A DNA stretch of 33,030 nt, from the NCBI GenBank assembly GCA_035759705.1, contig DASTUJ010000007.1, positions 1 through 33,030 on the forward strand. The letters run 5' to 3'. A program made the position numbers and the translations under genes. A model generated the notes under the pieces. That model saw nothing but the letters and a program-made list of their open reading frames with translations, made no database searches and was not told the origin of the DNA. Positions within the stretch are counted from its first letter, which is position 1, and each line of letters opens with the position of its first letter. The DNA comes from Actinomycetota bacterium (GTDB taxonomy: Bacteria; Actinomycetota; CADDZG01; JAHWKV01). Below, one piece after another: positions 2,027 through 17,861 of this stretch.

Positions 2027-3214
2027 TCAACGCTCGCCGAGGATGTAGACACCGGCGGCGAGCTCGATGTTCACCTTTTCGGAGAGGTCCTGGAACTCGG
2101 AGAGCGGCCGGTCCTCGTCCATGTCGCCCAGCAGGTCGGCGACCTTCATCTGCTTGAAGCGCTCCCGGTCGGCCTCGCTGTTCAGCCCCCAGACGTAGGA
2201 GCGCAGGATCCACTCCAGCGCCAGCCAGGGGCGCTGGAACTCGCCGACGCCCTCGTCGATGATCTTGCAGCCCTTGAACAGCTCCTTCAGCCCCTCCAGG
2301 GTGGTGTTGAAGTAGTGGTGGGGGTAGCCGTGGACCGGCTGCAGGAACGCCGAGTGGCAGATGAACCTGGCCCCCGGCTTCAGGACCCTCATCAGGTCTT
2401 TGGCGTAGCCGAAGGGGTCCCTCACGTGCTCCATGACGGCGTGGCTGATGACGCCGTCGAAAGTCTCGTCGGCAAACGGCAGGGCGGCGCCGTCGGCGAC
2501 CACGTTGGTGCTCGGGAACCGCTCGATCTCCAGCTGGATGACCTCGCCGCGGCCGAGCGGCGGCCATCCGGCACCGGCGTCAAGGAACAGGCCCTCTTTG
2601 GTGATCTCGAAGTAGTCGGGCACGATGTTCTCCAGGGCGGCGTGGCGGCTGACCGCTTCCCCTCTGGCGAGCGGGCTCGGCTGCTTGCCCAGAAAGCTCG
2701 GGCACTCCCCCATCCACTCAACCGGGCGGCCGCAGCCGGAACAGGCGGCCTGCAGCATCTCGAGCTTGCGGAAGCAGGTGGGGCACACCAGGACCTTCAT
2801 CAGGTTTTCGTGCGCCTGGGCGAAGGCCTCGTCGTGCAGCGTGACGTTCAGCGTGTAGAACTTGTGGGCCTCGCCCTCGCAGGTCTCGATCCACAACTCG
2901 CCGCCGTCGGCCCACAGCTTGCGGTCGACCTCCATGTAGAAGCCGGTGTGGAACGCGTTGGGGTGCTCCAGGAACGCCTTGTGGACGTCCGCCCGGCCGA
3001 ACCGGACCTGGGCCGGAACCCTGCCCTTGGTCGTGCGGCACTCGACGGTCTCGACGCCGTCCGGGTGGAACACCCAGCCGCGCACCGGGACGAAGGCGCC
3101 CGAGATCTCCATCCCGTCCTCGGGAATCTCCAGGAAGTACTGCACGTCGCCCGCCCGGAAGCCGGCGGTGGGCAGCTTGGTTTCGGGCAGCGCGTTGTCC
3201 GGCTTCATTTCCAT
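2027..3214 (-). CDS. SAM-dependent methyltransferase with N-terminal GW module and zinc ribbon
   Basis: The 395-residue protein has three parts. Residues 38-125 are a beta-rich module containing RGWVFHPDG and ending near HTGF, which resembles modules in the proteins at 6464 and 9622. Residues 144-161 hold a CPTC...CSGC zinc-ribbon pattern (Cys144, 147, 158, 161). Residues 208-390 form a class I methyltransferase: LDAGAG is the SAM-binding loop, followed by the Methyltransf_11-like segments LPFADETFDGVISHAVMEHV and VLKPGARF. Substrate is unknown; a sugar hydroxyl or carboxyl in the locus glycan is plausible. The ATG at 3214 has a purine-rich GAGGAGG about 12 nt upstream, and the gene lies 18 bp after the 954-residue fusion gene, so they are probably cotranscribed. 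Methyltransferase identity is secure; the module's role is inferred. Confidence 0.85.
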   Translation of the reverse strand: MEMKPDNALPETKLPTAGFRAGDVQYFLEIPEDGMEISGAFVPVRGWVFHPDGVETVECRTTKGRVPAQVRFGRADVHKAFLEHPNAFHTGFYMEVDRKLWADGGELWIETCEGEAHKFYTLNVTLHDEAFAQAHENLMKVLVCPTCFRKLEMLQAACSGCGRPVEWMGECPSFLGKQPSPLARGEAVSRHAALENIVPDYFEITKEGLFLDAGAGWPPLGRGEVIQLEIERFPSTNVVADGAALPFADETFDGVISHAVMEHVRDPFGYAKDLMRVLKPGARFICHSAFLQPVHGYPHHYFNTTLEGLKELFKGCKIIDEGVGEFQRPWLALEWILRSYVWGLNSEADRERFKQMKVADLLGDMDEDRPLSEFQDLSEKVNIELAAGVYILGER

Positions 3215-3232: not shown

Positions 3233-6097
3233 CTAGATGGAGGGTACAGGAGGAAGTTCGATCTTGAGGCTCGGGGGGTCGAACGGGTCCATATAACCCT
3301 TCCACCGGGTCCGGAAGAACTCCTCGTCCTCCACCGGGTGCGACTTGCCCGACGTCTCGTCGCCGTAGCCCCGGGTGGCGGCCTCGTGGTGGGTGAGCAC
3401 CGCGTAGGGCGTGAAGACGATCAAAAAGCCCTTGTCCTCGGCCCGAAGGCAGTAGTCGACGTCGTTGTAGGCGACCACCAGGTCCTCCTCGAAGCCCCCG
3501 AGGCCCTTGAACACCTCGGCCCGGGTCATCATGCAGGCTGCGGTCACTGCCGAGGGGTTGTGGATGCACCGGCCGATGCCGAAGTAGTTCTCAAAGTCGG
3601 CGTTGCCGGCCAGGCCGTTGCCCGGCCCGACGATCACACCCTCGTGCTGGGCCTTGCCGTCCGGGAAGAGCAGACGGGCGCCGACGGCTCCGACCTCGGG
3701 CCGCTGCGCGTGCTCGAGCAGCGCCTCGATCCAGTCCGGAGTCTTTACTTCGGTGTCGTTGTTCAGCAGCAGCAGGTACTCGCCATCCGCGTTCTCGGCG
3801 CCGTGGTTGATGATCTTGGAGAAGTTGAACTCGCCGGGGTGATGGACGACCCGGCCCCCGTATGACTTCAGGTAGTCGAGGGTCGCCTGCTCCTCGCTGT
3901 TGTTGTCGACGACGATTATCTCGTAGTTCCGGTAGGTGGTGCGCTGGCGGATGCTGTCGATGCAGACCTTCAGCAGGTCCAGCCGGTCCCGGGTGGGGAT
4001 GATGATGCTGACCTTCGGCTCGCCCTCGATGTCGTAGCGCATCCGGTAGTAGCCGGCGTAGGGGCCGTCCTCGACCCTGCCCTTGATCCCCTGGCGCTCC
4101 AGCGAGTCGGCCAGCGCCCGGCGGGCGGCGTCGTGGGCCCAGGGCTTGGTCTCGTCCGAGTGGGCGATGGAGGTGGGCACCTGGCGCCAGGTGTAGAGCG
4201 GGGTGCGGACGTGGCCGATGCGGTCGGTCTTCTCGGTGATCCTCAGGGTGAGGTCCCAGTCCTGGCTGCCGTCGTAACCCTCGCGGAAGCCCCCGGCCTC
4301 CTCGATAACCGACCGCCGGAACACGCTGAAGTGGGTGACGTAGTTGCAGGACTTCAAGAAGTCGGGCGACCAGTCCGGCTTGCGGAACGGGTCCCGGAGG
4401 GTCCCGTCCATGTCCTTGTGGTCGAGGTCGGAGTAGATGAAGTCCAGGTCCCGGCGCTCGTTGAGCAGCTTCACCACCTGGTAGAGGGCGTGGGCCTTCA
4501 GCTCGTCGTCGTGGTCCAGGAAGCCGACGAACTCGCCGGTGGCCATCTTCAGTCCGGCGTTGGAGGCTGCGGTTATCCCGCCGTTCGCCTCGCTGTAGTG
4601 GACCTTGATCCGGGGGTCGGCGGTCTCGTACTGCTTGAGGAGTGCCTTGAGGTCCTCCCGGTCCGACCCGTCGTCGACGATGCACAGCTCCCACTTGGTG
4701 TAGATCTGGCCGGTGACCGACTCGACCGCGTCCCGCAGCCACTCGGGCTCGGGGTTGTAGACCGGCAGGACGATGCTGACCGTGGGCTGGTATGCGAACT
4801 TCTTCGACTTGCGGGCCATCTCCTTGACCAGCGCAGGCGACAGCACGTAGAGGTCCTCCCACACCTGGTAGCGCTTCTCGGCGGGAACCGCGCTCGGGTT
4901 CATCGCCTTGCGGAACAGGCCCGGCGCCCAGCGCCAGGGCTTGGCGACGTGCATGAGGAAGCCCATCGGGCCCTTCTCGAGGATGATCCGGATCGCGTAC
5001 CCCGGCAGCAGGATCAGCCGGCGGCGGCGGGTGCCCCACGGGGCGTACTGGTCGATCTTCTCGACGAGCTTCTGCCACAGCTTGTAGTTCGTGCGCTGGA
5101 CGACCAGGTCGTGGGCGTGCTGCAGTCCGGCCAGCCGGGCTTCCATGGCCCCGAGGGCCTTTGAGGAGTCTGCGTCCAGCTGCTGGAGCTTGCCGGTCAG
5201 GTGGTGGACCTGTTCCTTCAGCTGCCACGCCCGGATGTCCAGGGCCCACAGCGGCGCCAGCATCTGGCGGGCCCGGGAGTGGGTCCCGTTGGTGGCGCTG
5301 AGCCTGCGGGTCACCCGCGCCGGGTCGGCAGCCGGTTCGGCCCGGACGATGAACTGGTAGGTCAGGGCGTCCGGCGAGGAGTTAAGGGCGTCCATCAAAG
5401 CTTTGGGGTAGTCCTGCTCCCGCAGGTCGAACTCGGTGGCGAAGACGCCGACGTCGACGTGACGCCACTCACTCACCTCGTAACCGGCGCCCGCGAAGAG
5501 GTCCTCGATGCCCGCCCGGGTGAAGAACCTCAGGTGGGTGCCGTCCAGCAGGCCCTTCTCCCGGTAGCGGAACTCGCCCTGGAGGAGGGAAAGGCGCACC
5601 GAGCCGTGGGCGACGTTGGGGATCGAGGCGCAGACGACGCCTCCGGGGGCCAGGATCGACCTGACCGCGACGAGGACCTTTGACGGGTTCACCAGGTGCT
5701 CCAGCACGTCGGAGAAGAGCACTACGTCGAACTTCTCGTCGCCGAAGAACTCGGGGAGGTTCATCTTCTCGATGTCGCCGACGATCATCCGCTCGCAGTA
5801 CTGCTCCCCGATCTTGGCGGCGACCGGGTCTATCTCCAGGCCGGTAACCCGGCAGCCCCGCTCGGTGAGCACCTTGGACATGTCGCCGGTGGCCGGTCCG
5901 ACCTCGAGCACCTTCTTGTCGCGGCCCGCCAGCAGGATGATCTGCGTCTGGGAGGTGTTCTTCTCGTTCAGGTCGATGTGGGTCTGGTACCGGAGCGCAT
6001 GGCCCTCGTCGCCGCTGGACAGCTCCGCCCGGGGTTCCAGCGAGTCCGGCGTTGGCTCGGAGGGGTGAGCGGGGGCCTGCTCTGGTCCGGTGGTCAA
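3233..6097 (-). CDS. Tri-domain methyltransferase-GT2-GT2 fusion
   Basis: This 954-residue protein fuses three catalytic domains. Residues 40-250 are a class I SAM methyltransferase (VLEVGPATG at 63-71, FDVVLFSDVLEH at 123-134). Residues 290-335 look like a short coiled coil, then a basic and hydrophobic linker. Residues 438-640 are a GT2 domain (SIVLPVYN, IVDDGS, and DHDD at 528-531 as the metal-binding DXD). Residues 694-915 are a second GT2 (SIIIPTRDR, VVDNNS, NND at 779-781, and a YNDVDYCLRAEDKG acceptor-side motif). Such fusions occur in surface-polysaccharide loci and can add two sugars and methylate, possibly to cap the chain. The start is TTG at 6097: AGGAG lies 7 nt upstream (6109-6105) and no better ATG precedes the methyltransferase domain. 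It heads the minus operon whose candidate promoter is at 6218-6191. Domain calls are firm; sugars and methylation site are unknown. Confidence 0.88.
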   Translation of the reverse strand: MTTGPEQAPAHPSEPTPDSLEPRAELSSGDEGHALRYQTHIDLNEKNTSQTQIILLAGRDKKVLEVGPATGDMSKVLTERGCRVTGLEIDPVAAKIGEQYCERMIVGDIEKMNLPEFFGDEKFDVVLFSDVLEHLVNPSKVLVAVRSILAPGGVVCASIPNVAHGSVRLSLLQGEFRYREKGLLDGTHLRFFTRAGIEDLFAGAGYEVSEWRHVDVGVFATEFDLREQDYPKALMDALNSSPDALTYQFIVRAEPAADPARVTRRLSATNGTHSRARQMLAPLWALDIRAWQLKEQVHHLTGKLQQLDADSSKALGAMEARLAGLQHAHDLVVQRTNYKLWQKLVEKIDQYAPWGTRRRRLILLPGYAIRIILEKGPMGFLMHVAKPWRWAPGLFRKAMNPSAVPAEKRYQVWEDLYVLSPALVKEMARKSKKFAYQPTVSIVLPVYNPEPEWLRDAVESVTGQIYTKWELCIVDDGSDREDLKALLKQYETADPRIKVHYSEANGGITAASNAGLKMATGEFVGFLDHDDELKAHALYQVVKLLNERRDLDFIYSDLDHKDMDGTLRDPFRKPDWSPDFLKSCNYVTHFSVFRRSVIEEAGGFREGYDGSQDWDLTLRITEKTDRIGHVRTPLYTWRQVPTSIAHSDETKPWAHDAARRALADSLERQGIKGRVEDGPYAGYYRMRYDIEGEPKVSIIIPTRDRLDLLKVCIDSIRQRTTYRNYEIIVVDNNSEEQATLDYLKSYGGRVVHHPGEFNFSKIINHGAENADGEYLLLLNNDTEVKTPDWIEALLEHAQRPEVGAVGARLLFPDGKAQHEGVIVGPGNGLAGNADFENYFGIGRCIHNPSAVTAACMMTRAEVFKGLGGFEEDLVVAYNDVDYCLRAEDKGFLIVFTPYAVLTHHEAATRGYGDETSGKSHPVEDEEFFRTRWKGYMDPFDPPSLKIELPPVPSI

Positions 6098-6464: not shown

Positions 6465-9400
6465 TGTACGCTGCTAACGCCCAAAAAGAGGGGCGCATCA
6501 TTGCTCCTGCCGACGCGTCGGCAGTTGAGTCCGGTTACCTACAGGTGACCGGGTGGGCCCTCACCGATCCTCCCGTTTCCCGGGTCGATGTCACCGTCGA
6601 CGAAAAGGTTGCCGGCAGCGCCCTGATCGGGCTCCCGGCCCCTTCCGAGCAGGCGTACAGGCGTGAGTCGCAGGCGCCGATCTGCGGGTTCGAGTTCGAG
6701 CTCGACCTGGCGCAGTTCGTCACCCCGGGAGACCCGGTTCGGATCGGAGCGACTGTCGTGGCGGTCAACGGGTCGACGTACCGGCTGAACGAGGTCCACC
6801 TGACCACGGTCGCACCCGGCGACGGCAAAGAGCTCTCCTTCGACTTTCTGCCCTCTGCTCGACCGGTCCATCAGGGCGAGGGACCGATGAAGGTGGCGAT
6901 AGTCGCCAACGACCTGTTGCTCGGGGGTTCCCAGCTCCGGCTGCTCGAGGTGCTGGCGAACCTGACGAGTGACCCCCGGTTTGCGTTCACCGTCTTCTCC
7001 CCCCTAGACGGGCCGCTGCGCCCCGAGCTGCTGTCGCTCGGCATCAAGGTGAAAATCTGCCCGGCATTTTCCTACTCGTCGGCCGGCGGCTACACCGAGG
7101 CTGCCTCCGGGCTCGCCCGGGAGTTGGCCGGCGGCGGGTACCGCCTGGTTTGGGCGAGCACCCTGATCTCGTTCATCGGAATCGAAGCCGCCCGGCTTGC
7201 CGGCCTTCCCAGCCTGCAGTTGATCCAGCAGAACCAGGACGTGCCGGTCTTCTGGGGCCACGCACTGGCTAACGGCGAGATCGACCCGGTGGTCGCCCGG
7301 CGGGCCCAACGGCTGTGTGCCCTGGCGGACCGGCTGGTGGTGGTCTGCGAGGCGTCCCGGCGGACCTACGGACGGTACGGGAACGACGGCAAGATCGCGG
7401 TCGTCCAGAACGCCATCGACCTGGAGGCAATCGACCGGTACCGGGCCGCAACCTCCCGTGCCGAGGCCAGGCGCAGCCTAGGCGTGGGGGACGGAGAGAC
7501 GCTCGTGCTGTGCTGCGGGGTGATCGCCCCCCACAAAGGCCAGACCACCCTGGCACAGGCTTTCGCGTCGGTGGCCGAGCGCCACCCGGACGCGGTCCTG
7601 ACCCTGGTGCACGAAATCGGCAACCGGTACACCGCCGGACTCAAGGCGTACCTGGAGAGGGCCGGCCTCGGGGACCGGGTGCGGGTGCTGCCGCTCGCCG
7701 ACGACGTCTACCGCTGGTACCGCGCCGCCGACCTGGCGATCTGCCCCTCCCAGGAGGAGGCGCAGCCCTCGGTGGTCCTGGAGGCCATGGCTTTCGGCGT
7801 GCCGGTCGCGAGCACCACGGTCGGTGGGGTGACCGAGGTGGTCGAAGACGGTGTCACGGGCCTGTTGTGCCGTCCGGGCGACCTGTCCGCCATGGCCGCG
7901 ATGCTCGACCGGGCTCTTTCGCTGAGCTCTTCCGAGCGGGAGGCGATCGTCGCGGCGGCCAGGGCACGGGTCGACCGTAACCACGACGTGCGACGGGCCT
8001 CCATGCAATACCTGGCCGTGCTGGAGGAGCTCACCGGGGCCGGGCCGCTGCCGGAGGATCAGGCCCGCCCGCAGGTTGAGGTCGAGCTGGAGCGGGGCCG
8101 GGCGGCCATCGCAGAGTTCCGGTCCTGGGCCAAAGAGCTCCAGGAGGCGGTCCGCTATCACCACGACCGCGCCAACGCCTCCGAGGCCCTGGGCGCCAGG
8201 CTCGTAGCCGAGCGCGACGTCGCGCAGACCGAGGTCGCCCGGCTCGCGCCGCTGGAAAAAAAGCTCGATGCGGCAACCCGGGAGATCGAGGCGATCCACC
8301 ACTCGAAGGCGTGGCGGGTCTTCAACCTCATTTGGGCGGCCCGACGGACCGCCGACCGGCTGGTAGCCCCGGTTCGCAACCGTCTGTCCCGGCTCGCCTC
8401 CCGGCCGCCCGCAGCCACCACGGCCGCCGGCGCCGCGGCCGCCGGCGCCGGCGCCGAACAGGAGTTGGGGGCCTCCGCCGCCCGTCTGATCGAAAAGCTG
8501 CCCGAACGGTTCCCTGCCGGCAACGGCCGGCCGGTCCTGCTCTGCCTCCCGTGGTTTGTCACCGGGGGCGCCGACCGGGTGGTCGAGTACCTCCTCGGGC
8601 ACTGGCGGGCCGGCGGCCGGACGGTTGTGGTCATAACCACCACCCCGCTCGGCGTCAACATGGAGAGCCGCTTCGACGACCTTCTCGGACTCACACCTTT
8701 CGCCTACGACCTGAACCACATGGCGCCTGCTGCGTCCTGGCTGCCGTTCGTGGAGGAGCTCCTCGACCGTCTCGGCAACCCGACTATCCTCAACATCGGC
8801 AGCGGGTGGCTCTACTCGAACCTGGAAAGGCTGCTCGCCTCGCGCCCGGGAATCCGGGTGGTGGACCAGCAGTTCAACGACGTCGGTCACCTCACCAGCA
8901 ACCGCAAGGTCAGGTCCCATGTCGACCTCACGGTCGCTGCGCACCGCGCGCTGGCCGAGGTCGTTCGCTCCGACGGCCGGGACCCCGGCCGGGTGGTCAC
9001 TGCCTACGTAGGCATCCCGGCCCCGCCAAGGGCCACAGACGAGCAGCTCGCCGGGCTCCGGGCCGAGCTCGGCGTCGCTCCCGGAACCAAGGTGGTGCTG
9101 TTCATCGGGCGGTTCTCGGAGGAGAAGCGCCCGGAGTGGGTGGTAGCGCTCGCGGCCGTCCTGGCCGGCGACGACGTCGCCGTGGTCATGGTGGGCACGG
9201 GACCTGAGGAGGCGGAGCTTCGCAAAGGCATCGAAGCCCTCCCCGGGGTCACCTGGCGGCGGTACGTCGAGAACATCGGTGCGTTCATCGGGCTGGCCGA
9301 CGTCCTGGTCCTGCCGAGCCGGACCGAAGGCATCCCGCTCACCGTGATGGAGGCCCTCTCGCTCGGAACCCCCGTGGTGGCAACCCGCGTCGGCGGCCTG

Positions 9401-9619
9401 GGCGAGCTGGACGGAATCCCCGGATTCCGGCTCTGCGAGCCCGACGACTTCCCGGGATTCGTCACCGCGGTGAGGGAGACGCTGGGATCGGCTCCGGCGG
9501 AGGGGATAGCCCTCCCCGCCCACTTCGGGGTCGAGCACATGGTCGAGACCTACGACCGGATCGTCGACGGAACCGAGCTCAACCCCAGGTCCCCGCAGAC
9601 GGCCGGGGTGGGGGCGTAG
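6464..9619 (+). CDS. Double GT4 glycosyltransferase with N-terminal GW module
   Basis: The 1051-residue protein starts with a GW module (residues 24-115; VTGWALTDPPVSRVDV...CGFEF). The first GT4/GT-B domain spans about 142-525, with GGSQLRLLE near its N-terminus and an EX7E pair at Glu432/Glu440. A helical region follows (540-640), containing the SKAWRVFNLIW segment common in linkers of multidomain glycosyltransferases. Next comes an Ala/Gly-rich linker (650-666), encoded by a repetitive GCC-GGC stretch. The second GT4 spans about 688-1035 with GGADRVVEYL, GRFSEEKRPEW and EX7E at Glu955/Glu963. Retaining transfer from nucleotide sugars is the family activity; sugars are unknown. The ATG at 6464 is preferred to a frame opening at 6275 because a TATATT box lies directly upstream and the extra 63 residues look non-coding. 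The next gene follows after 2 bp. Confidence 0.88.
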   Translation: MYAANAQKEGRIIAPADASAVESGYLQVTGWALTDPPVSRVDVTVDEKVAGSALIGLPAPSEQAYRRESQAPICGFEFELDLAQFVTPGDPVRIGATVVAVNGSTYRLNEVHLTTVAPGDGKELSFDFLPSARPVHQGEGPMKVAIVANDLLLGGSQLRLLEVLANLTSDPRFAFTVFSPLDGPLRPELLSLGIKVKICPAFSYSSAGGYTEAASGLARELAGGGYRLVWASTLISFIGIEAARLAGLPSLQLIQQNQDVPVFWGHALANGEIDPVVARRAQRLCALADRLVVVCEASRRTYGRYGNDGKIAVVQNAIDLEAIDRYRAATSRAEARRSLGVGDGETLVLCCGVIAPHKGQTTLAQAFASVAERHPDAVLTLVHEIGNRYTAGLKAYLERAGLGDRVRVLPLADDVYRWYRAADLAICPSQEEAQPSVVLEAMAFGVPVASTTVGGVTEVVEDGVTGLLCRPGDLSAMAAMLDRALSLSSSEREAIVAAARARVDRNHDVRRASMQYLAVLEELTGAGPLPEDQARPQVEVELERGRAAIAEFRSWAKELQEAVRYHHDRANASEALGARLVAERDVAQTEVARLAPLEKKLDAATREIEAIHHSKAWRVFNLIWAARRTADRLVAPVRNRLSRLASRPPAATTAAGAAAAGAGAEQELGASAARLIEKLPERFPAGNGRPVLLCLPWFVTGGADRVVEYLLGHWRAGGRTVVVITTTPLGVNMESRFDDLLGLTPFAYDLNHMAPAASWLPFVEELLDRLGNPTILNIGSGWLYSNLERLLASRPGIRVVDQQFNDVGHLTSNRKVRSHVDLTVAAHRALAEVVRSDGRDPGRVVTAYVGIPAPPRATDEQLAGLRAELGVAPGTKVVLFIGRFSEEKRPEWVVALAAVLAGDDVAVVMVGTGPEEAELRKGIEALPGVTWRRYVENIGAFIGLADVLVLPSRTEGIPLTVMEALSLGTPVVATRVGGLGELDGIPGFRLCEPDDFPGFVTAVRETLGSAPAEGIALPAHFGVEHMVETYDRIVDGTELNPRSPQTAGVGA

Positions 9620-9621
9620 CC

Positions 9622-10917
9622 ATGGTGAGGTGCTCGGTGGTCATCCCGGCCTACAACGCAGAACGGTACCTGGCCTCGGCCATTCGTTCCGCGCTGGCCC
9701 AGACCTTCACCGGGACCGAGGTCATCGTCGTGGACGACGGGTCGACCGACGGAACGGCCGAGGTCATCGACTCCTTCGGCGACCGGGTATTCGCCATACA
9801 CCAGCCCAACGCAGGCCCCTCGGTGGCCCGGAACGTCGGCATGAAGGCTGCATCCGGGGAGTACATAGCCTTCCTCGACTCCGACGACATGTGGATGCCC
9901 AGGCGGTTGGAGCAGATGGTCGGCCGGCTCGACGCCGACAAGAACCTGGGTTTCGTGACGAGTGACGCCTACCTGATCAACGAGGAGCGGCCGACGTCGC
10001 TCCGCTACTACGGAACGCTGGTCGACCCGACCCCGTTCAACTCCGAGGACCTGGGCTACTGGATCGTCCGGCAGAACTTCATATTCACCGGAGTTGTGGT
10101 CAGAACCGAGCTCTTCGACCGCCACGGCACGTTCATGCCGAACATCCTGGCCGAGGATTGGGACCTGTGGACCCGCTTCATCCTCGAGGGCTCCGGGGTC
10201 GGGCTGGTCGACAGCCCCCTCGGCTACTACCGAATCCGCCGGGCGGGGCTCACCTGCTCCGACGAGTTCGACGCCCACCGCGAGGCGGCCCTGTTCCGCA
10301 ACCTTCACGACCCGAAGGTGCTGAGCATCCCGGGCCTGGGCCGGGATCTGTTCCTGCCGCTCGCCCGCGAGGCGCTGCTCAGCCGGAACCTCGACGAAGC
10401 CCGCTTCTGCCTGCAGGCAACGGCGCACGACCGGACGATCTCCCGCCCCCGCCGCGTGCTCGCCGGGTGCATGGCGGCGTTCCCCGCGGCGGCGGCAATT
10501 TCGGCCGATCTGCAGGCCCAGCGGGAGGCGAGGCGGGCCTCTCGGACCTTCGTCTTGGTGTCGGGGGCGTTGCGGGACTCGGACGGAAGGGCCTACCGGC
10601 CGGATCCGTATTTCGAGGGTTGGGTGGAGTCGGACGGCCGGAGCGCCCCCCTCAGCGGGTGGGCGGTCGGGCGCAGGCGGGAGCCGGTGGACCTGCTGGC
10701 CGTGTTCGTCGACGGCCGGTTCCACGGTTCGGTGACCCCGTCGGTGCTGCGCCCCGATGTGGCCGCCCACACCGGCAACCCCGAGTCGGTAATCTCAGGA
10801 TTCTGCGCCACCGAGCCGGCGATCCGCCCGGAACCGGAGCAGAAAATCCAGGTCATCGCAATCTCCGGGCACCGGTACGCCGAGCTGCCCATGCTGGATT
10901 CCCCGACGCAGACTTGA
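9622..10917 (+). CDS. GT2 glycosyltransferase with C-terminal GW module
   Basis: Residues 4-215 of this 431-residue protein form a canonical GT2 (GT-A) domain: SVVIPAYNAERYL, IVVDDGSTDGT, LDSDD at 85-89 as DXD, and AEDWDLWTRF at 177-186 as the catalytic-base region. A helical connector follows, then at about 326-421 a GW module (PLSGWAV, VFVDGRFHG, LRPDVAAHTGNPESVISGF) like those at the N-termini of the enzymes at 2027-3214 and 6464-9619, but here C-terminal. GT2 enzymes invert and use nucleotide sugars at the cytoplasmic side. The ATG is 2 bp after the previous stop and the next gene overlaps its stop, so the three genes form one operon. Donor and acceptor are unknown. Confidence 0.88.
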   Translation: MVRCSVVIPAYNAERYLASAIRSALAQTFTGTEVIVVDDGSTDGTAEVIDSFGDRVFAIHQPNAGPSVARNVGMKAASGEYIAFLDSDDMWMPRRLEQMVGRLDADKNLGFVTSDAYLINEERPTSLRYYGTLVDPTPFNSEDLGYWIVRQNFIFTGVVVRTELFDRHGTFMPNILAEDWDLWTRFILEGSGVGLVDSPLGYYRIRRAGLTCSDEFDAHREAALFRNLHDPKVLSIPGLGRDLFLPLAREALLSRNLDEARFCLQATAHDRTISRPRRVLAGCMAAFPAAAAISADLQAQREARRASRTFVLVSGALRDSDGRAYRPDPYFEGWVESDGRSAPLSGWAVGRRREPVDLLAVFVDGRFHGSVTPSVLRPDVAAHTGNPESVISGFCATEPAIRPEPEQKIQVIAISGHRYAELPMLDSPTQT

Positions 10918-12599
10918 CCGAGGGGCAACCCGGCAGCAGACGTTTGTACACCGCCGTAATGGGGCTGTCGGCGGTCGTCGCCTACCTGATCCTCGCTCTG
11001 CCCCAGACCGGCCAGTCCCTGATCATCGACGAGGTGGAGTTCCCACGGCTGGCCGAGGCCATCGCCGAAACCGGGAAACCGGTCTTCTACCGGGGCGAGG
11101 AGTCGCCCGGGCAGACCGGTGTCTTTCACCCGCCCCTCTACGCATTCCTGCTCGGCTTCTGGGTCAAGCTTCTCGGCTTCTCCCCGGCGGTCGTCCGCCT
11201 CTTCGGGGTCCTGCTTATGCCGGCGACCGCCTGGTTCGGCTACCGGACGATCGAGGAGATGGGTCCCAAGGATCTCGAGCCCGGGTTCTTCCTGGTTTTC
11301 TTCCTGCTGCACCCTTTTGTGCTGCAGAGTGCGCTCCTGCCGGACATCGACGGAACCATGTTGATCTTTGCGACCACTCTTCTGGGCTGGACGGTGGTCC
11401 GCAGCGTTACCCGCGAGATGAGCCTCGGCCGGCAGATCCTCGGAGTCGGATCGGCTCTGGCGCTGGTCCTCGCATGCAAGCTCACTGCGGTCTACGCAGT
11501 TCCGTTCGTGTTCGGGGCGCTGCTGATCGCCAATGGCCCGATGCTGGCGGCAAAGGTGACCGCAGCCGCTTCCACTCTGGCGGCCGGCATCTTTCTGGTC
11601 GTATGGAGACTGGTTTCCTGGGTGACCGACTCCCCTTTCAGCTTCCCGTTCGAGTTCACGCTCCAGAGCGGGCTCAAAGGCGGGGTCAGCGACCTCCCGC
11701 TTGCGACGGCCCTCAGGCGGCTCATCCCGGCCGACTGGGCGATGTTCTGGCTCGGGATGCCCGTTCTGCTGATGGCGGCGGCCGGGACCGTCCACGTGGC
11801 TGCCCGCTGGAGGAAGGAGCCCTCCCGCCGGGTGCTGCTCGCGTTTGCCGCCTGGGCGGGCGGCGTCCTGGCCCTCTACTCGCTGATCACCGGACCTCCC
11901 TACGGGTTCCCGAAGTACCTGGTGGGGGCGATGCCCGCGCTGGCGATGCTGGCGGCCATCCCGGCGGCTTCCGGGGCCGAGAGGCTGAGGGTCCTCGGGA
12001 GGTGGGCCTGGGCGGTTCCGGTCGCGGTCGTTCCGCTCGTCTACGTGCTCTATGTGAACTACGCGGACGGCCTGGAGACCGACCGGTACTTCACCCACCC
12101 CTGGTTCGTGCTGCTGCCCATCGGGCTGGCGGCGGGACTGGTCCTGGCGGTCCTGGCCTCGCGGCGTCCCGACGGCTGGATCCGCTACTCGATCGCCGGC
12201 CTGTCGGTCGGCGGCGCGGCGCTGCTGTTCTCGCACAGCTTCAGCGTGGACCTCTACCAGGCGCAGCAGGACTCCTCGATCCGCTACCACCCGTCCGAGG
12301 TCGGCTTCGACCGCACCGTCGCCCGGATGAGGGATCTGGTACGCCCCGATGAGCCGTTCCTGGCCCCGAAGGACATCGGTTCGGCCGTCTACAACCGGTT
12401 CCACCAGCAGGAAATAATCTTCCACGACATGCAGGTGCTGGACCGCCTGCTGGCGGACCCCGCGGTCAGGTACGCCGTGGTGCGCACCGAGTGGGACTAC
12501 TCGTATGCGGTGTTCCCGGAGGCGCAGCCGGTCATCGAGCGCCACATGCAACTGCAGGAGACCATCGGGGGATTTCTGATCTACGCCCGCCGGCCTTAA
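10914..12599 (+). CDS. GT39/ArnT-like membrane glycosyltransferase
   Basis: About 561 residues with roughly ten hydrophobic segments. After the first membrane segment comes LIIDEVEFPRLAEAI, whose Asp39-Glu40 matches the conserved acidic pair in the first outer loop of GT-C enzymes of the PMT/ArnT class. GVFHPPLYAFLLGFWVKLLG follows, also typical of that class. These enzymes use polyprenyl-phosphate sugars outside the membrane; the synthase-like GT2 at 15280-16005 could supply such a donor. The C-terminal 100 residues are soluble. The chosen TTG at 10914 overlaps the previous stop as TTGA; ATG at 10959 is the alternative and would remove 15 residues. The gene ends 3 bp from the convergent gene at 12603, with no terminator between them. 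Confidence 0.8.
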   Translation: MTEGQPGSRRLYTAVMGLSAVVAYLILALPQTGQSLIIDEVEFPRLAEAIAETGKPVFYRGEESPGQTGVFHPPLYAFLLGFWVKLLGFSPAVVRLFGVLLMPATAWFGYRTIEEMGPKDLEPGFFLVFFLLHPFVLQSALLPDIDGTMLIFATTLLGWTVVRSVTREMSLGRQILGVGSALALVLACKLTAVYAVPFVFGALLIANGPMLAAKVTAAASTLAAGIFLVVWRLVSWVTDSPFSFPFEFTLQSGLKGGVSDLPLATALRRLIPADWAMFWLGMPVLLMAAAGTVHVAARWRKEPSRRVLLAFAAWAGGVLALYSLITGPPYGFPKYLVGAMPALAMLAAIPAASGAERLRVLGRWAWAVPVAVVPLVYVLYVNYADGLETDRYFTHPWFVLLPIGLAAGLVLAVLASRRPDGWIRYSIAGLSVGGAALLFSHSFSVDLYQAQQDSSIRYHPSEVGFDRTVARMRDLVRPDEPFLAPKDIGSAVYNRFHQQEIIFHDMQVLDRLLADPAVRYAVVRTEWDYSYAVFPEAQPVIERHMQLQETIGGFLIYARRP

Positions 12600-12602
12600 C
12601 GC

Positions 12603-13337
12603 TCAGCCCTTTTCGTCGGGCAGAAGTTGTGCCCGCATACGGTCGAAGTCCTGGGCCGCCCGGTCGTAGTCCTCTGGCCGCCCGATGTCCATCCAGTAGC
12701 AGTCGGAACGGTACGCCACGACCTTCTCTCCCCTCTCCAGCAGCCGGTTGACGAGGTCCGGGAAGTCGAGGCGCTTCCCCGGCTCGATCAGCTTGAGGGC
12801 GGCCGGCGAGTAGACGTAGGCGCCCATGCTGCACTGATAGGAGTTGGTGGGTTTTTCGATGTACTCGGTGACCCGCCCGTCGCCGTCGACGCCCAGGACG
12901 CCCAGGTCGACCCGGATCTTCTTCGTGTGGACACCGATCGTCAGGGCCGCCTCCTGCTCCCGGTGGAAGCCGGCCAGCGCCGTGAAGTCGAGGGTCGTGA
13001 GGATGTCGCCGTTGCAGACCAGCAGGTCGTCGTCCACGCCTTCGAGCATCGCCAGCGCCCCGGCGGTGCCCAGCGGCTCGTCCTCCCGCAGGTAGGAGAT
13101 TTCCATCCCCTCAATCGGGCCGCGGGTCAGGAAATACGCCTCGATCAGCGGCGCCAGGTGCCCGACCGAGATGTAGGCCGACTTCACCCCGTGCCAGCGC
13201 AGCTGGCGGAGGACGATCTCCATGATCGGGATGTCGCCCAGGGGGACCAGGGGCTTGGGGAAGACCATGGTGTAGGGCGCGAGCCGGGTGCCCAGGCCTC
13301 CGGCGAGAAGCACCGCCCGAACGGGCTCAGACGCCAT
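12603..13337 (-). CDS. Sugar-1-phosphate nucleotidyltransferase
   Basis: A 244-residue single-domain nucleotidyltransferase. The N-terminus has AVLLAGGLGTRLAPYT and FPKPLVPLGDIPIME, the nucleotide-binding signature of the NTP_transferase family. NGD at 109-111 supplies a metal-binding Asp. A later VTEYIEKP and the DIGRPEDYDRA ending match glucose/mannose-1-phosphate nucleotidyltransferases. There is no C-terminal hexapeptide-repeat acetyltransferase domain. It overlaps the dehydratase gene upstream by 11 bp. Because its partners look like GDP-sugar enzymes, guanylyltransfer is a reasonable guess, but base and sugar cannot be read from the sequence. The ATG at 13337 fits the family start. Confidence 0.85.
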   Translation of the reverse strand: MASEPVRAVLLAGGLGTRLAPYTMVFPKPLVPLGDIPIMEIVLRQLRWHGVKSAYISVGHLAPLIEAYFLTRGPIEGMEISYLREDEPLGTAGALAMLEGVDDDLLVCNGDILTTLDFTALAGFHREQEAALTIGVHTKKIRVDLGVLGVDGDGRVTEYIEKPTNSYQCSMGAYVYSPAALKLIEPGKRLDFPDLVNRLLERGEKVVAYRSDCYWMDIGRPEDYDRAAQDFDRMRAQLLPDEKG

Positions 13338-14319
13338 AGACCCTGGGCTGGAACCGGGCGAGGTTGGGCTCCATCCATGCGATGACCCGGCGCAGCCCCT
13401 CCTCCAGGCCGACCTCGGCCTTCCAGCCGCACAGCTCGGCGGCCTTGGAGGCGTCGCAGAGCAGCCGGCCGACCTCGCTGGCTTTCGGCCGGATCCTCTG
13501 GGCGTCCTCCCGGACGGCCAGCTCCCGGCCGAGCAGCTTCGAGACCATGTTCACGACGTCACCTATCGACACCTCGGTGCCGGTGCCTAGGTTGACGGTT
13601 TCCCCGACCGCCGCCTCGCTCCCGGCGACTGCGGCGAAGCCCCGTACCGTGTCGGCGACGTAGGTGAAGTCCCTCTTGGGGGCCAGCGAGCCGAGCTGCA
13701 GCTCACCGCCGGCCAGCGCCTGGCTGATCACCGTGGGGATCAGGGCCCGGGTGGACTGGCGGGGGCCGAAGTTGTTGAAGGGCCGGATGACGGTCACCGG
13801 CAGCTCGAAGCTGCGGTAGAAGCTCTCGGCCAGCTTCTCGGCGCCGATCTTGCTCGCCGAGTAGGGGGACTGACCCTGCAGGGGGTGCTTCTCGTCGATC
13901 GGTGCGTAGATCGCCGTCCCGTAGACCTCGCTGGTGGAGATCTGGATCATGCGGCCGACCCCGTTCTCCCGGGCCGCCTCGAGTACGTTGAGCGTGCCGA
14001 TCACGTTGGTGTCAACCACATCCCGAGGGCTCTGGTAGGAGTACGGGATGCCGATAAGGGCCCCGAGGTTGAAGATGCACGAGGTCCCCTTCGACGCCCG
14101 CCGGACCGTGTCGGAGTCGCGTAGGTCGCCGAAGTGTTTGTCGACCCCGGACAGGACGTCGGCAGGCACGTCGGCCAGCAGGCCGGGGTCGTTCCGGGAG
14201 TTGTAGTGCAGGAACACCCGCACCTTGACCCCCTGGGAGACCAGGTACTCGGTGAGGTGGCTGCCGATGAAGCCTCCCGCTCCGGTGACCAGGACCGGGC
14301 CGTCGTCCCATCCGCTCAA
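13327..14319 (-). CDS. LegB-like NAD-dependent 4,6-dehydratase (extended SDR)
   Basis: This 330-residue extended SDR has TGAGGFIGSHL at 12-22 for NAD binding, STSEVYG at 128-134, and the catalytic pair Tyr153/Lys157 in SPYSASKIGAEKLA. The stretches GALIGIPYSYQSP, DTNVIGTLNVLEAAR, PIDEKHPLQGQSPYSASK and FNNFGPRQSTRALIPT closely recall LegB-type nucleotide-GlcNAc 4,6-dehydratases of legionaminic acid synthesis; this is recognition from memory, not a search. No LegC aminotransferase, LegI synthase or LegF cytidylyltransferase is present, so the product probably feeds another route. The start is TTG at 14319, overlapping the previous stop as TTGA; there is no in-frame ATG before the Rossmann motif. 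Dehydratase identity is likely; LegB-type specificity is less certain. Confidence 0.82.
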   Translation of the reverse strand: MSGWDDGPVLVTGAGGFIGSHLTEYLVSQGVKVRVFLHYNSRNDPGLLADVPADVLSGVDKHFGDLRDSDTVRRASKGTSCIFNLGALIGIPYSYQSPRDVVDTNVIGTLNVLEAARENGVGRMIQISTSEVYGTAIYAPIDEKHPLQGQSPYSASKIGAEKLAESFYRSFELPVTVIRPFNNFGPRQSTRALIPTVISQALAGGELQLGSLAPKRDFTYVADTVRGFAAVAGSEAAVGETVNLGTGTEVSIGDVVNMVSKLLGRELAVREDAQRIRPKASEVGRLLCDASKAAELCGWKAEVGLEEGLRRVIAWMEPNLARFQPRVYGV

Positions 14320-15272
14320 AGCACCGACCTGAAATGTTCCAGCGTGTCGCGCAGGCTCGTCTCGAAGTCGATGGCCGGGGCCCAGCCCGTCAATGAGCGG
14401 AGCCGGGAGGCGTCGCAGCAGGTCTCGGACGGCTCACCGCGCCGTACCCGGCCTGCCACCGGCCTGACCTCCACCTTCGTCATAGCCATCCTCGCCAGAA
14501 TTGCGACTGCTTCGCCAATACTGTGGTTCACCCCGCTCCCGATGTTGTAGATCCCGCCCGACGGGCTCATTATCAATGCCTGCAGGTAGGCGCGCACGAC
14601 GTCCCGGACGTCGGTGAAGTCCCGCCGGTCCTCGGTGGAGCCCACCTCGACCACCGGCGGCCCCCCGGCCTCGGCCCGTGCGATCTGGCTCGCAATCGAG
14701 GGAATGACAAATCGGTCCGACTGGCCGGGCCCGATGTGGTTGAACGCCCGGACGCAGACCACCCTGAGGCCGGCCGCAGCGTAGGACAGCGCGACCTCCT
14801 CCTGACGCAGCTTTGCCCTCCCGTAGGCGTGGACCGGCCGCATGGGCGCCTCTTCGGCCGTCGGCAACGACCCGGGTTCCTGGGGGCCGTACTGGGCGTC
14901 CGATCCGGCCGAGAGGACCGCCGCATCCGGCACGGCGGCCAGCACCTGCTCCATCAGCACCGTCGTTCCTCCCACCGCCGTGTCGATGAGGTCGTGGTCA
15001 TCGGCCGGCGGCGTCCGGGCGGCCAGGTGGAAAACGTAGTCCGGCCGGGAAACCTCGAGCGCCGCAGCCACGTCCTCCGGGTTCGTGATGTCGCCCTTCA
15101 GGTCGAGCACGCGTGCGTCTGCGGCGCCGCCCATGCCGGAGCGGGAGAGGCCGGCTACGTTCCATGCGGTGCTCTCCAGCAGGTGGCGGACCAGGTGCCG
15201 CCCGGCGAACCCGCCGGCCCCCGTCACCAGCGCGGAGCGGGGCAGGCCCGACTCGTGTTCGACCGATCCCAT
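14316..15272 (-). CDS. NAD(P)-dependent sugar reductase/epimerase, GDP-6-deoxyhexose reductase-like
   Basis: A 318-residue extended SDR with VTGAGGFAGRHL at 16-27 and Tyr150/Lys154 in HAYGRAKLRQEE. The segment VRAFNHIGPGQSDRFVIPS strongly recalls GDP-4-keto-6-deoxy-D-mannose reductase (RMD), which makes GDP-D-rhamnose. The usual SSxEVYG-like segment is AGSDAQYGPQ here. It would act after the 4,6-dehydratase encoded immediately downstream, with which it overlaps by 4 bp, reducing the 4-keto group. An epimerase role, or another 4-keto-6-deoxy sugar, is possible. The ATG at 15272 lies 7 bp past the stop of the GT2 gene upstream. Confidence 0.78.
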   Translation of the reverse strand: MGSVEHESGLPRSALVTGAGGFAGRHLVRHLLESTAWNVAGLSRSGMGGAADARVLDLKGDITNPEDVAAALEVSRPDYVFHLAARTPPADDHDLIDTAVGGTTVLMEQVLAAVPDAAVLSAGSDAQYGPQEPGSLPTAEEAPMRPVHAYGRAKLRQEEVALSYAAAGLRVVCVRAFNHIGPGQSDRFVIPSIASQIARAEAGGPPVVEVGSTEDRRDFTDVRDVVRAYLQALIMSPSGGIYNIGSGVNHSIGEAVAILARMAMTKVEVRPVAGRVRRGEPSETCCDASRLRSLTGWAPAIDFETSLRDTLEHFRSVL

Positions 15273-15279
15273 TTCCCGG

Positions 15280-16005
15280 CTATCGCGAACGGCGGCGGCG
15301 CCCCTCGAAAACCCGGATCTTCAGCAGGATCAGCACGGCCTCCACCCCGTCGGTCCACTGAAGTTTCTTGCCCTCTTCCCGGTTGCGGGCTTTGTACCTG
15401 ATGGGGACCTCCTGGATGCGGCGACCCGACAGCAGGAAGCGGCCGGTAGCCTCGGCCTCGATGCCGAAGCCGTTTTGTTTCAGCTCCAGCGACCTCCAGA
15501 CGTCCAGCCGGCTCATCTTCAGGCACGTCTCCAGGTCGCTCAGCCAGGCGTTGAACAGGAAACTGGCCCAGAAGCTGACCGCCTTGTTGCCGATCACGTA
15601 CCAGAACGAGTAGGCGCTGTGGGTGCCGAACGACCTTTTGCCGTAGACCACCTCGGCCCCGTCCTCGACAATCGCCTGGATCATCGCCCGGTAGTCGGCC
15701 GGGTCGTACTCCAGGTCGGCGTCCAGCACGGTCAGAAGATCGCCCCGGGCCGCTTCGATGCCGGTCCTGAGCGCCGCCCCCTTGCCCCGGTTGCGGTCGT
15801 GCAAGACCACCCGGACCTCGCCCTTTTGCACCAGATCCTCGATCGAGGTCACACTGCCGTCGGTGGACCCGTCGTCGATGACCACGACGTCCAGGCGGAG
15901 ACCGAGGTCGGTCTTCAGCAGGCGTTCCAGGGCGGTCCGGAGGGTGGCAACCTCGTTCAGCACGGGAATCAGTACGGTCAGGCTCTCGGGCGTTTCCTCA
16001 GGCAT
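15280..16005 (-). CDS. GT2, polyprenyl-phosphate sugar synthase-like
   Basis: A 241-residue GT2 protein: SLTVLIPVLNEVATL, VVIDDGSTDGS, NRGKGAALRTGIEAARGD and DAD at 95-97. This is the pattern of dolichyl/polyprenyl-phosphate mannose or glucose synthases. There are no C-terminal membrane helices, so it is the DPM1-like soluble or peripheral type. The likely product is a polyprenyl-phosphate sugar, the donor used by GT-C enzymes such as those at 10914 and 1-1985; that link is inference. I start it at ATG 16005, just before the domain. The frame stays open upstream, and TTG at 16044 lies 7 nt after a TAGGAT box (16057-16052), so a leaderless form 13 residues longer is possible. Confidence 0.82.
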   Translation of the reverse strand: MPEETPESLTVLIPVLNEVATLRTALERLLKTDLGLRLDVVVIDDGSTDGSVTSIEDLVQKGEVRVVLHDRNRGKGAALRTGIEAARGDLLTVLDADLEYDPADYRAMIQAIVEDGAEVVYGKRSFGTHSAYSFWYVIGNKAVSFWASFLFNAWLSDLETCLKMSRLDVWRSLELKQNGFGIEAEATGRFLLSGRRIQEVPIRYKARNREEGKKLQWTDGVEAVLILLKIRVFEGRRRRSR

Positions 16006-16051
16006 TGCGCGGTACCCCCGTCGGACATCCCGGACACCAACCAACACCCCG

Positions 16052-16057
16052 ATCCTA
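16052..16057 (-). promoter_or_regulatory. TAGGAT -10 box for the minus operon 16005-12603
   Basis: TAGGAT on the minus strand lies 7 nt before an in-frame TTG at 16044 and 46 nt before the ATG at 16005. The same box and spacing occur before birA. It would drive the GT2, reductase, dehydratase and nucleotidyltransferase genes. Confidence 0.4.
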
Positions 16058-16100
16058 CCCACCCGGCGGCCCGGCGGCCGGACGATCGTCCCGCTAACGG

Positions 16101-16113
16101 TAAGGTATCGACG
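16101..16113 (+). promoter_or_regulatory. TAAGGT -10 box before wzm
   Basis: TAAGGT at 16101-16106 lies 6 nt before the GTG at 16113, which fits a leaderless start. The AAGG inside it could instead act as a Shine-Dalgarno, so the reading is ambiguous. Confidence 0.4.
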
Positions 16114-16946
16114 TGAACAAAGTCCTCACCAAGACTCGGCTGACAAACTTCGCCGCCGCCAGGTCCCTGCTGATCAACCTGACGCTCAGGGAGAACCGCA
16201 GCAAGTACAAACGGTCCGCTTTGGGCTGGGCGTGGTCGATGATCAACCCCATCGCCACCATGCTGGTTTTCACCTTCGTCTTCCGGCTGGTGTTCCGGAT
16301 CCCCCCGCCGACCGGTGACCCCAGCGGCCTCGAGAACTTCGGCTTTTTCCTGATCTGCGGCCTGCTGCCCTGGAACTTCCTCGCTGCCGGCCTCACCGGG
16401 GCCACCGGATCCGTCGTGGGCAACGCCGGCCTGATCAAAAAGGTCTACTTCACCCGGGCCGTCCTCCCGGCCTCCAGCGTGCTCTCCTGGAACACCAACC
16501 TGCTGATCGAGCTCGGGGTCCTGTCGATTGCGCTGATTTTCGTCGGGCAGTTGGTCTTCATCTACCTGCCGGCCGCAATCCTCGTGATCGTGCTCCAGAT
16601 GTTCTTCGTACTGGGCATCGGGCTGGCGCTGTCCGCCCTCAACGTCTACTTCCGGGACATCGAGCACTTCCTGTCGATCCTGCTTCTGCTGTGGTTCTAC
16701 GCCACGCCTATCATCTACCCGATCGACCTGATCAACGCCAGTCCGAGCATCAACGGCGCCATGAGGACGATCTACTTCATGAATCCGATGGTTCACTTCA
16801 TCGAGGCGTACCGGGCGATCTTCTACCACTTGCGCTCGCCCGGGGCGGACACATTTCTGTACATGTTCCTCTCCGCCGCAGTGACCATGACCTTCGGAAT
16901 GTGGCTGTTTCGGAAGCTGGAACCCAAGTTTGCGGAGGAGCTTTGA
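16113..16946 (+). CDS. wzm: ABC-2 polysaccharide exporter permease
   Basis: A 277-residue integral membrane protein with six or so hydrophobic segments and the features of the Wzm/TagG/RfbA permease family. An amphipathic N-terminus carries LTLRENRSKYKRSALGWAWSMINP, and a later part has LNVYFRDIEHFLSILLLLWFYATPIIYP. It forms the channel that moves a lipid-linked polysaccharide across the cytoplasmic membrane with the ATPase encoded next to it. The GTG start at 16113 gives the normal family N-terminus. The ATPase gene overlaps its stop by 4 bp. Family assignment is secure; the glycan carried is inferred from the locus. Confidence 0.92.
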   Translation: MNKVLTKTRLTNFAAARSLLINLTLRENRSKYKRSALGWAWSMINPIATMLVFTFVFRLVFRIPPPTGDPSGLENFGFFLICGLLPWNFLAAGLTGATGSVVGNAGLIKKVYFTRAVLPASSVLSWNTNLLIELGVLSIALIFVGQLVFIYLPAAILVIVLQMFFVLGIGLALSALNVYFRDIEHFLSILLLLWFYATPIIYPIDLINASPSINGAMRTIYFMNPMVHFIEAYRAIFYHLRSPGADTFLYMFLSAAVTMTFGMWLFRKLEPKFAEEL

Positions 16947-17728
16947 GCGAAGAAATTGCGGTAACCGCCCAGAACGTCTCCAAGCGTTTCCGGATCTACC
17001 ACGAGCGCAACCAGAGCATCAAGCAGATGGTGCTACGGCGCAGCCGGGGCGTTTACGAGGAGTTCTGGGCCCTGAAGGACGTGTCGCTCGACATCCCTCA
17101 GGCGTCGTCCTACGGCCTGATCGGTGAGAACGGCTCCGGGAAGTCCACTCTTTTGAAGTGCATGGCAAAAATCCTGGTCCCGGACGAGGGTTCGGTTGCG
17201 ACGGTCGGCTCGATCTCTGCGCTGCTGGAGCTCGGCGCCGGCTTCCACCCCGAGCTCTCGGGGCGGGAGAACGTGTTCCTCAATGGGGCGATCCTCGGCA
17301 TCAGCTCGAAGGAGCTGAACCGCAAGTTCGACGAGATCGTCGCCTTCTCCGGCATCGAGAGGTTCATCGACACCCCGGTCAAGAACTACTCCTCCGGCAT
17401 GTACGTGCGCCTGGGATTTTCGATTGCAATCAACGTCTCCCCCGACGTCCTTCTCGTGGACGAGGTCCTGGCGGTAGGCGATGCCGAGTTCCAGATGAAG
17501 TGTTCGCAGAAGTTCCGGGAGCTCAAGAGCTCCGGGTGCACGATTGTGGTGGTCTCGCACTCGATGGAGATGATCCGCGACCTGTGCGACTCGGCCGCGT
17601 GGCTGGAGCACGGGACCTTGAGGGCAACGGGGCCGGCCAGGGACGTCATCCGTTCATACATGAAGCACGTCGCCGAGAACACCGGCTCGGAGTACGTGGA
17701 CCCCGACCAGGTGGCCCCCACCCCCTAG
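16943..17728 (+). CDS. wzt: ABC transporter ATPase for polysaccharide export
   Basis: The ATPase partner of the permease, 261 residues. Walker A is GENGSGKST (61-69), the signature is the Wzt/TagH variant YSSGMYVRLGFS (149-160), Walker B is DVLLVDE (168-174), and the switch His is 206. FHPELSGRENVFLNGAILG is typical of this family. Unlike the well-studied O9a-type Wzt, it ends soon after the nucleotide-binding domain and has no C-terminal carbohydrate-binding domain, so export may not require recognition of a chain cap by Wzt. The start is TTG 16943, overlapping the permease stop as TTGA with GGAGGAG directly before it; the frame is open further upstream, but only as a shadow of wzm. Confidence 0.92.
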   Translation: MSEEIAVTAQNVSKRFRIYHERNQSIKQMVLRRSRGVYEEFWALKDVSLDIPQASSYGLIGENGSGKSTLLKCMAKILVPDEGSVATVGSISALLELGAGFHPELSGRENVFLNGAILGISSKELNRKFDEIVAFSGIERFIDTPVKNYSSGMYVRLGFSIAINVSPDVLLVDEVLAVGDAEFQMKCSQKFRELKSSGCTIVVVSHSMEMIRDLCDSAAWLEHGTLRATGPARDVIRSYMKHVAENTGSEYVDPDQVAPTP

Positions 17729-17789
17729 CCGAAGGCTTCTAACATCCCATCGAAGTCCGGCCCGATTTCGACCTGTCCCCGCCATCCTC

Positions 17790-17802
17790 CGAGTCGGACT
17801 CG
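17790..17802. repeat. 13-bp palindrome upstream of the hydroxylase gene
   Basis: CGAGTC and GACTCG are perfect complements around a single central G. The repeat lies 30 bp before the TAGAAT box, so it could be an operator. It could also help end wzt transcription, but no T-run follows it. Confidence 0.25.
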
Positions 17803-17831
17803 CCCAGGTAGGTTCCAGGAGGCTCTTTGAC

Positions 17832-17853
17832 TAGAATCCCCGGGAACGAGGAG
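17832..17853 (+). promoter_or_regulatory. TAGAAT -10 box and GAGGAG ribosome site
   Basis: TAGAAT at 17832-17837 is followed by GAGGAG at 17848-17853, which stands 8 nt before the ATG at 17862. This start is leadered, unlike many others in the window. No good -35 is visible. Confidence 0.45.
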
Positions 17854-17861
17854 TCGGTCGC

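Follow-up and report, generated by a model that had tools for sequence, protein, structure and literature searches.

A methyltransferase-GT2-GT2 fusion as a candidate polymerase and chain-end methyltransferase in an actinomycetotal glycan cluster with a Wzt lacking the carbohydrate-binding domain

Gene Content of the Locus

The window, by which we mean the whole stretch of 33,030 nucleotides analyzed here, encodes a fusion protein with a methyltransferase (MT) and two GT2 glycosyltransferase domains, together with a second methyltransferase, a membrane protein, and a Wzm/Wzt-type ABC transporter (Table 1). The extent of the fusion gene given in the preliminary description (3233-6097) is exact, and translation and start context place the gene itself on the minus strand. 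The gene starts with TTG at 6097, is preceded by a good ribosome-binding site (AGGAG at 6109-6105), and ends with a stop codon at 3235-3233. The preliminary description also held that a methyltransferase and two GT2 domains with intact motifs belong to one protein, and the Pfam matches and motif positions bear this out; the N-terminal MT and both GT domains lie on the same 954-residue polypeptide in the Pfam scan as well as in the AlphaFold2 model.

Table 1. Coordinates of the fusion gene, its domains and the associated genes in the window.
Feature	Position	Strand	Basis
MT-coil-GT2-GT2 fusion gene, 954 aa	3233..6097	minus	translation, start context, Pfam
N-terminal class I SAM methyltransferase domain, residues 45-255	5333..5965	minus	Pfam, AlphaFold2 (AF2) model
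Predicted coil, residues 274-334	5096..5278	minus	single helix in AF2 model, pLDDT about 50-70
Basic then hydrophobic helical stretch, residues 354-395	4913..5038	minus	sequence; helix 357-385 in model
First GT2 module, residues 434-676, DHDD motif	4070..4798	minus	Pfam, conserved residues
Second GT2 module, residues 693-915, NxD motif	3353..4021	minus	Pfam, motifs
Second methyltransferase gene, 395 aa, CxxC..CxxC zinc-ribbon-like stretch	2027..3214	minus	Pfam Methyltransf_11, 44 bits
Membrane protein, 661 aa up to contig edge	3..1985	minus	open frame; 11 TM-like segments
Wzm-type ABC permease	16113..16946	plus	PF01061, 57.7 bits
Wzt-type ATPase without C-terminal carbohydrate-binding domain	16940..17728	plus	262 aa; Pfam, structure alignment

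The second methyltransferase is, as described earlier, next in the operon, starting 18 bp downstream of the fusion on the same strand, and it is kept behind the fusion in two further genomes (G001 and G002); its zinc ribbon matches Pfam below the cut-off only. The membrane protein, for which the Pfam scan gave no match, is the third gene of the likely operon. Upstream of the fusion, a GT4-GT4 protein and further glycosyltransferases are encoded divergently. Similar-looking "GW" stretches of about 100 residues, perhaps small beta domains, are found in the second methyltransferase and in two plus-strand products (6470-9619 and 9622-10917). A carbohydrate-binding domain common to the second methyltransferase and to the window's GT4-GT4 and GT2 proteins was considered because the stretches look alike by eye, but hhalign probabilities of 1-4% did not bear it out. 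Between the Wzt gene and a GT2-GT4 gene, the plus-strand product of 17862-18764 resembles OlsE hydroxylase, with 82 bits against a curated cut-off of 475. A homologue of PF00908 (RmlC family) is present in the genome, which makes dTDP-rhamnose a possible donor.

The Wzt, whose start codon is inferred from its overlap with wzm, aligns through residues 12-247 to residues 7-240 of 404-residue Wzt structures and nowhere else, and its Pfam matches do not include Wzt_C. It ends just past the ATPase domain, and the earlier statement that it lacks a cap-recognition domain is therefore correct; export licensed by a C-terminal carbohydrate-binding module (CBM) is not a feature of this Wzt. The transporter genes lie 10 kb from the fusion on the opposite strand, so that the usual, though not defining, position directly behind wzm-wzt is not seen in the window. 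The same genome carries a second Wzm and a Wzt with a PF14524 C-terminal domain (C118:294-1058 and C222:9567-9971; loci L127 and L128), which are apparently split over two contig ends and belong to a separate glycan cluster.

Domain Architecture of the Fusion Protein

An AlphaFold2 model of the fusion built on 20 sequences (mean pLDDT 78.4, pTM 0.59) places the MT first, followed by one long helix (274-334), more helices to approximately residue 432, and the two GT modules. In the MT domain, Pfam Methyltransf_23/11 matches at about residues 58-208 and the SAM-binding loop is intact, with the motif EVGPATG from residue 65. The modeled domain has a generic class I fold and is best matched by 3cc8 (Z 22.4, 192 aligned residues, rmsd 4.1, 35% identity), the closest solved relative, which is itself annotated merely as a putative methyltransferase. 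Compared with the MTs of eight other aligned fusions, it is 55% identical to one and 17-31% identical to seven. The MT profile matches WbdD weakly (31-32 bits, E about 1e-6), and WbdD is absent among the 50 matches in the Foldseek and VIA-align listings for the MT model, an absence which excludes nothing.

In its best register, 15 of the 17 a/d positions of the predicted coil (61 residues) are hydrophobic, and the coil has a 3.5-residue periodicity (p=0.004 against shuffles) in a part of the model where pLDDT is 50-70; when the stretch is extended to residues 274-351, the periodicity is not significant (p=0.22). Ruler terminators such as WbdD, WbbB and ORF6-O7 have an extended coiled coil separating terminator from polymerase, a feature for which the helix in the window's fusion is a candidate. 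The arginine-rich and then hydrophobic stretch that follows (354-395) may, judging by its composition, contact the membrane.

Pfam Glycos_transf_2 matches two stretches of the fusion, with the best at 441-600, and Glyco_tranf_2_3 matches best at 694-906. The first GT2 module carries VDDGS from residue 474, DHDD from 528 and SQDWD from 611, with D528, D530, D531, Q612, D613, and D615 invariant across 20 aligned proteins; the second carries VDNNS from 730, NND at 779-781 and NDVDYC from 878. Heparosan synthase 2 and chondroitin polymerase, both bifunctional polymerases, are the most significant Foldseek matches; their whole-chain TM scores of only 0.20-0.22 indicate that the modules match and that their arrangement does not.

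Relatives of the Fusion

A first scan of genome contigs with a single-protein query found no relative, and a second scan with an alignment query did. The congeneric genome G001 encodes a homologue with 65% identity over residues 20-954, and a Chloroflexi contig (L031) encodes one with about 50% identity; in view of this recurrence, the fusion is no accident of assembly or frameshift. In G001 the fusion, the second methyltransferase, the GT2-GT4 gene, and a short Wzt with its Wzm are found in one place, the transporter lying beside the fusion and divergent from it, with Wzm between Wzt and the fusion and Wzt 916 bp away. This layout ties the fusion to a short Wzt better than the window alone does. 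A fusion in a Bacilli locus (L252) with the order wzm-wzt-fusion has an MT close to that of the window (113 bits over 200 residues).

Proteins with a GT2-GT2 pair are numerous (162 in the 142 sources surveyed), and the pair is a very common platform. Its N-terminal additions include MTs of two Pfam types, GT4, sulfotransferase, a further GT2 domain, other stretches or nothing, and the named types were confirmed by Pfam in examples. Fusions with an MT of either type come from Chloroflexi, Peregrinibacteria, Clostridia, Enterococcus, Azospirillum and a Thaumarchaeota bin, the taxa being given as named in the records.

Several variants of this architecture were observed. In a genome of the same genus (G003; L022:8040-11021) the order is reversed, with the GT2-GT2 pair followed by a C-terminal MT (Pfam Methyltransf_23 at 777-919). 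A Phormidium locus (L050:4114-7358) encodes a GT2-GT2 pair without a detected MT and, directly behind it, a homologue of the window's second methyltransferase (155 bits). A sulfotransferase replaces the MT before the GT2-GT2 pair at L043:8402-11641 (by Pfam) and L063:8075-11767 (by our own profile), where the sequences would be compatible with a possible sulfate cap. A frame of 24,448 residues in genome G004 (L023:8001-18000) was rejected as an artefact, given that positions 8001-18000 are all N among the 18,000 bases inspected.

Survey of Linkage to the Transporter

The regions surveyed were selected, for the most part for long frames, and do not form a random sample: those from 11 of the 12 matched genomes of one search (the window's own omitted), from further searches 20 from 45 match rows, 15 from 19, 12 from 26 and 3 from 11, 7 from the 22 match rows of a search with an MT-fusion query, and the best 80 of 578 related stretches. 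Near-duplicates in the whole set were then clustered. A Wzm/Wzt pair was within reach at 74 loci, which formed 59 groups at 60% identity, a cluster being scored as MT when any member had an MT.

MTs were assigned with our own profiles and phmmer (E<1e-3). The N-terminal MT also scored above the Pfam cut-off for the window, L020, L024, L031, L089, L064, L078, L032, L097, and L034; in L025, which is cut by a contig end, the MT falls below the Pfam cut-off, and in L234 the match spans 75 residues only. The label "kinase-like" was assigned by eye to L029, L090, L101, L102, L234, and L236, and the Pfam scan of L029 named no kinase.

Among the 21 MT clusters, 16 have the fusion within 150 bp of wzt and on its strand; the same placement is found in 9 of the 38 clusters that lack a fused MT (p=2.3e-4, uncorrected for phylogeny). 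The type of Wzt follows no such pattern. The MT clusters comprise 8 with an ATPase-only Wzt, 12 with an extended Wzt, and 1 mixed cluster, and those without a fused MT comprise 13 and 25, respectively, where "extended" means a C-terminal extension of at least 100 residues and nothing more. The preliminary description had proposed a survey of co-occurrence with short Wzt proteins, and this one shows no tie of the fused MT to them (p=0.78, computed without the mixed cluster, which joins L078, with an MT and a short Wzt, and L095, with no MT and a long one); the fusion architecture thus occurs with both transporter types.

A tie to the short Wzt had been entertained on a smaller set before clustering, and was later rejected. 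The first set (L020-L110 and the window) gave 6 short against 1 long among tandem-detected MT_23/11 fusions, or two long when L064 is added; with more genomes, MT loci had 10 short and 9 long against 14 and 34 without an MT (p=0.093), and in the next set, with L064 counted as MT, 11 and 15 against 14 and 34 (p=0.31). A difference in MT-GT2 linker length between short-Wzt and long-Wzt loci was likewise rejected (8 versus 8 MT_23/11 fusions, p=0.43).

At the level of whole genomes, PF14524 was sought in nine that encode an N-terminal MT_23/11 fusion, with none found in six (G001, G061, G701-G704), of which G001 is 81% complete and the other five are given no completeness figure, and one each in G000, G062, and G700. 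None was found in G002 (94% complete), where the fusion is cut before the MT. The genomes with Methyltransf_24 fusions have two (G006) and one (G007).

Comparison With Characterized Systems

Two fusions of polymerase and methyltransferase domains are described with biochemical evidence, WsaE and ORF6-O7 (PMC2943079, PMC3898925, PMC11231755). WsaE, from the S-layer glycan system of Geobacillus stearothermophilus, is reported to consist of an N-terminal MT and two rhamnosyltransferase domains, the MT being assigned the 2-O-methyl terminal cap, in a cluster with the order wzm-wzt-fusion (PMC2943079, PMC3898925). Compared by description, WsaE and the window's fusion have the same N-terminal MT and two GT domains on one chain, and both clusters hold wzm and wzt. 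They differ in the transporter, as the Wzt of the WsaE cluster is predicted in those accounts to bind the capped chain, whereas that of the window has no C-terminal domain and does not lie beside the fusion.

ORF6-O7 of Klebsiella pneumoniae O7 is described as MT-kinase-CBM-coil-GT2-GT2, with a CBM-like domain, and both polymerase and terminator activity are reported as shown for it (PMC11231755). It shares with the window's fusion an MT, a coil (predicted in the latter), a GT2 with DxDD, and a GT2 with NxD, and the spacing from DxDD to NxD is 255 residues in ORF6-O7 and 251 in the window's fusion. As described, ORF6-O7 is the longer protein, with its GT modules within 766-1414, and unlike the window's fusion it has an additional kinase and CBM-like domain ahead of the coil, and its cap is a methyl-phosphate. 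The Pfam scan of the window's fusion found no kinase family, and the gap between the end of the MT, near residue 255, and the start of the long helix at 274 is too short to hold one.

In Escherichia coli O9a, WbdD is reported to combine MT and kinase domains with a coil; for O8, a homologue that has the MT alone is enough (PMC3482155). As the predicted coil would in the window's fusion, a coil in WbdD parts the MT from the end that deals with the polymerase, in that case by recruiting it; unlike the window's fusion, WbdD is described as acting with a separate polymerase, WbdA, and the cap is recognized by the Wzt CBM (PMC3482155). Caps are normally read by the carbohydrate-binding domain of Wzt, according to PMC9445017. 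For E. coli O101, a separate MT with a coil has been suggested as the capper and perhaps as a ruler (PMC13168486), and PMC10629545 cites a published bioinformatic survey of terminated systems.

Export without a CBM has precedents. The CBM-less transporter of K. pneumoniae O1 is reported to export chains with and without terminal pyruvate, the terminal modification being needed for neither export nor chain length (PMC11231755). Vibrio cholerae O1 Ogawa is reported to have a terminal 2-O-methyl group and a CBM-less transporter, and export continues when the MT is lost (PMC10629545). The window's system is like that of Ogawa in its CBM-less transporter and, if read as proposed below, in its terminal methyl, and differs in that the Ogawa passages of PMC10629545 describe no MT-polymerase fusion.

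Proposed Function and Alternatives

We consider a WsaE-type polymerase that also performs terminal methylation to be the best explanation for the fusion, with a probability of about 0.6. The preliminary description had proposed a fused extender and terminator, and this stands as the best reading; the design is already known from WsaE and ORF6-O7, which the description did not name. The coupling of capping to length control by another route, which the description also raised, may or may not apply, and control of chain length by the cap alone is less sure than the combination of polymerization and terminal methylation.

Judging by homology and intact motifs, the two GT2 modules would alternate in lengthening a lipid-linked surface glycan at the membrane. 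The N-terminal MT, set off by a predicted coil of approximately 9 nm, would move a methyl group from SAM to a hydroxyl of the non-reducing-end sugar and, judging by WsaE and ORF6-O7, would thereby stop growth of that chain. With a Wzt that lacks the C-terminal carbohydrate-binding domain, the cluster probably does not use the cap as an export ticket, and chain length would then follow how often the MT or the transporter catches the chain. The donor sugar, the acceptor sugar, the terminal position of the methyl, and any effect on length are what we infer.

The domain order and motifs shared with the characterized fusions support polymerization with terminal methylation, as do the recurrent wzm-wzt-fusion operons of the survey, including the order at L252, and the joint presence of fusion, second methyltransferase and short Wzt in G001. 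We also count in its favor that six of the nine genomes with an N-terminal MT_23/11 fusion yielded no PF14524 and that bifunctional polymerases are the top Foldseek matches. Against it we count the generic MT fold with a closest solved relative that is just putative, the short, low-confidence coil, the separation of Wzt from the fusion by 10 kb and its opposite strand, and the second transporter in the genome with its C-terminal-domain Wzt.

The absence of a C-terminal domain from the cluster's Wzt also suits an alternative in which terminal methylation does no more than add variety at the chain end. The transporter would then export chains equally well with or without the cap, and their length would depend on the balance between polymerase and transporter; K. 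pneumoniae O1 (PMC11231755) and V. cholerae O1 Ogawa (PMC10629545) are printed cases. The capping enzymes of these two systems are not described in those accounts as fused to a polymerase; fusion and a predicted coil would point to a closer involvement of the MT, and we regard this alternative as unlikely. More doubtful still is that the MT methylates a sugar of each repeat as the chain grows and does not act as a terminator. Fusion to a polymerase would suit repeat-by-repeat methylation, with which the sequence is compatible, and a separate second methyltransferase comes next in the operon; yet the published accounts of both characterized fusions, WsaE and ORF6-O7, assign the MT to the chain end, and a methylated acceptor hydroxyl would be blocked from extension at that position. 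Action of the MT on a lipid carrier or protein, or loss of its activity, might fit the low identity of the MT to most of the other aligned MTs and is very improbable given the intact SAM-binding loop and the conservation of the whole fusion in G001 and L031.

Implications

The fused polymerase-methyltransferase design itself is already known, and what is still of interest here is its CBM-less version, in which length and export would have to be kept in order by a transporter that does not read the cap. The set combining an ATPase-only Wzt with a fused MT amounts to 8 of 21 protein clusters plus the MT member of the 1 mixed cluster. In such systems the fused-MT polymerase might end its own chains and the ATPase-only Wzt export them, placing quality control of length within the enzyme and not the transporter, a proposal that we advance as a doubtful one; by analogy with the printed precedents, the question of length and export without a CBM may have an ordinary answer.

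If terminal methylation does set length here, the rule that caps are read by the Wzt CBM would not be general, and one enzyme could define the length of a glycan. If it does not, the fusion would be another modular capping enzyme on the shared GT2-GT2 polymerase, and the main use of these observations would be in annotating the very common proteins now recorded as "glycosyltransferase family 2."
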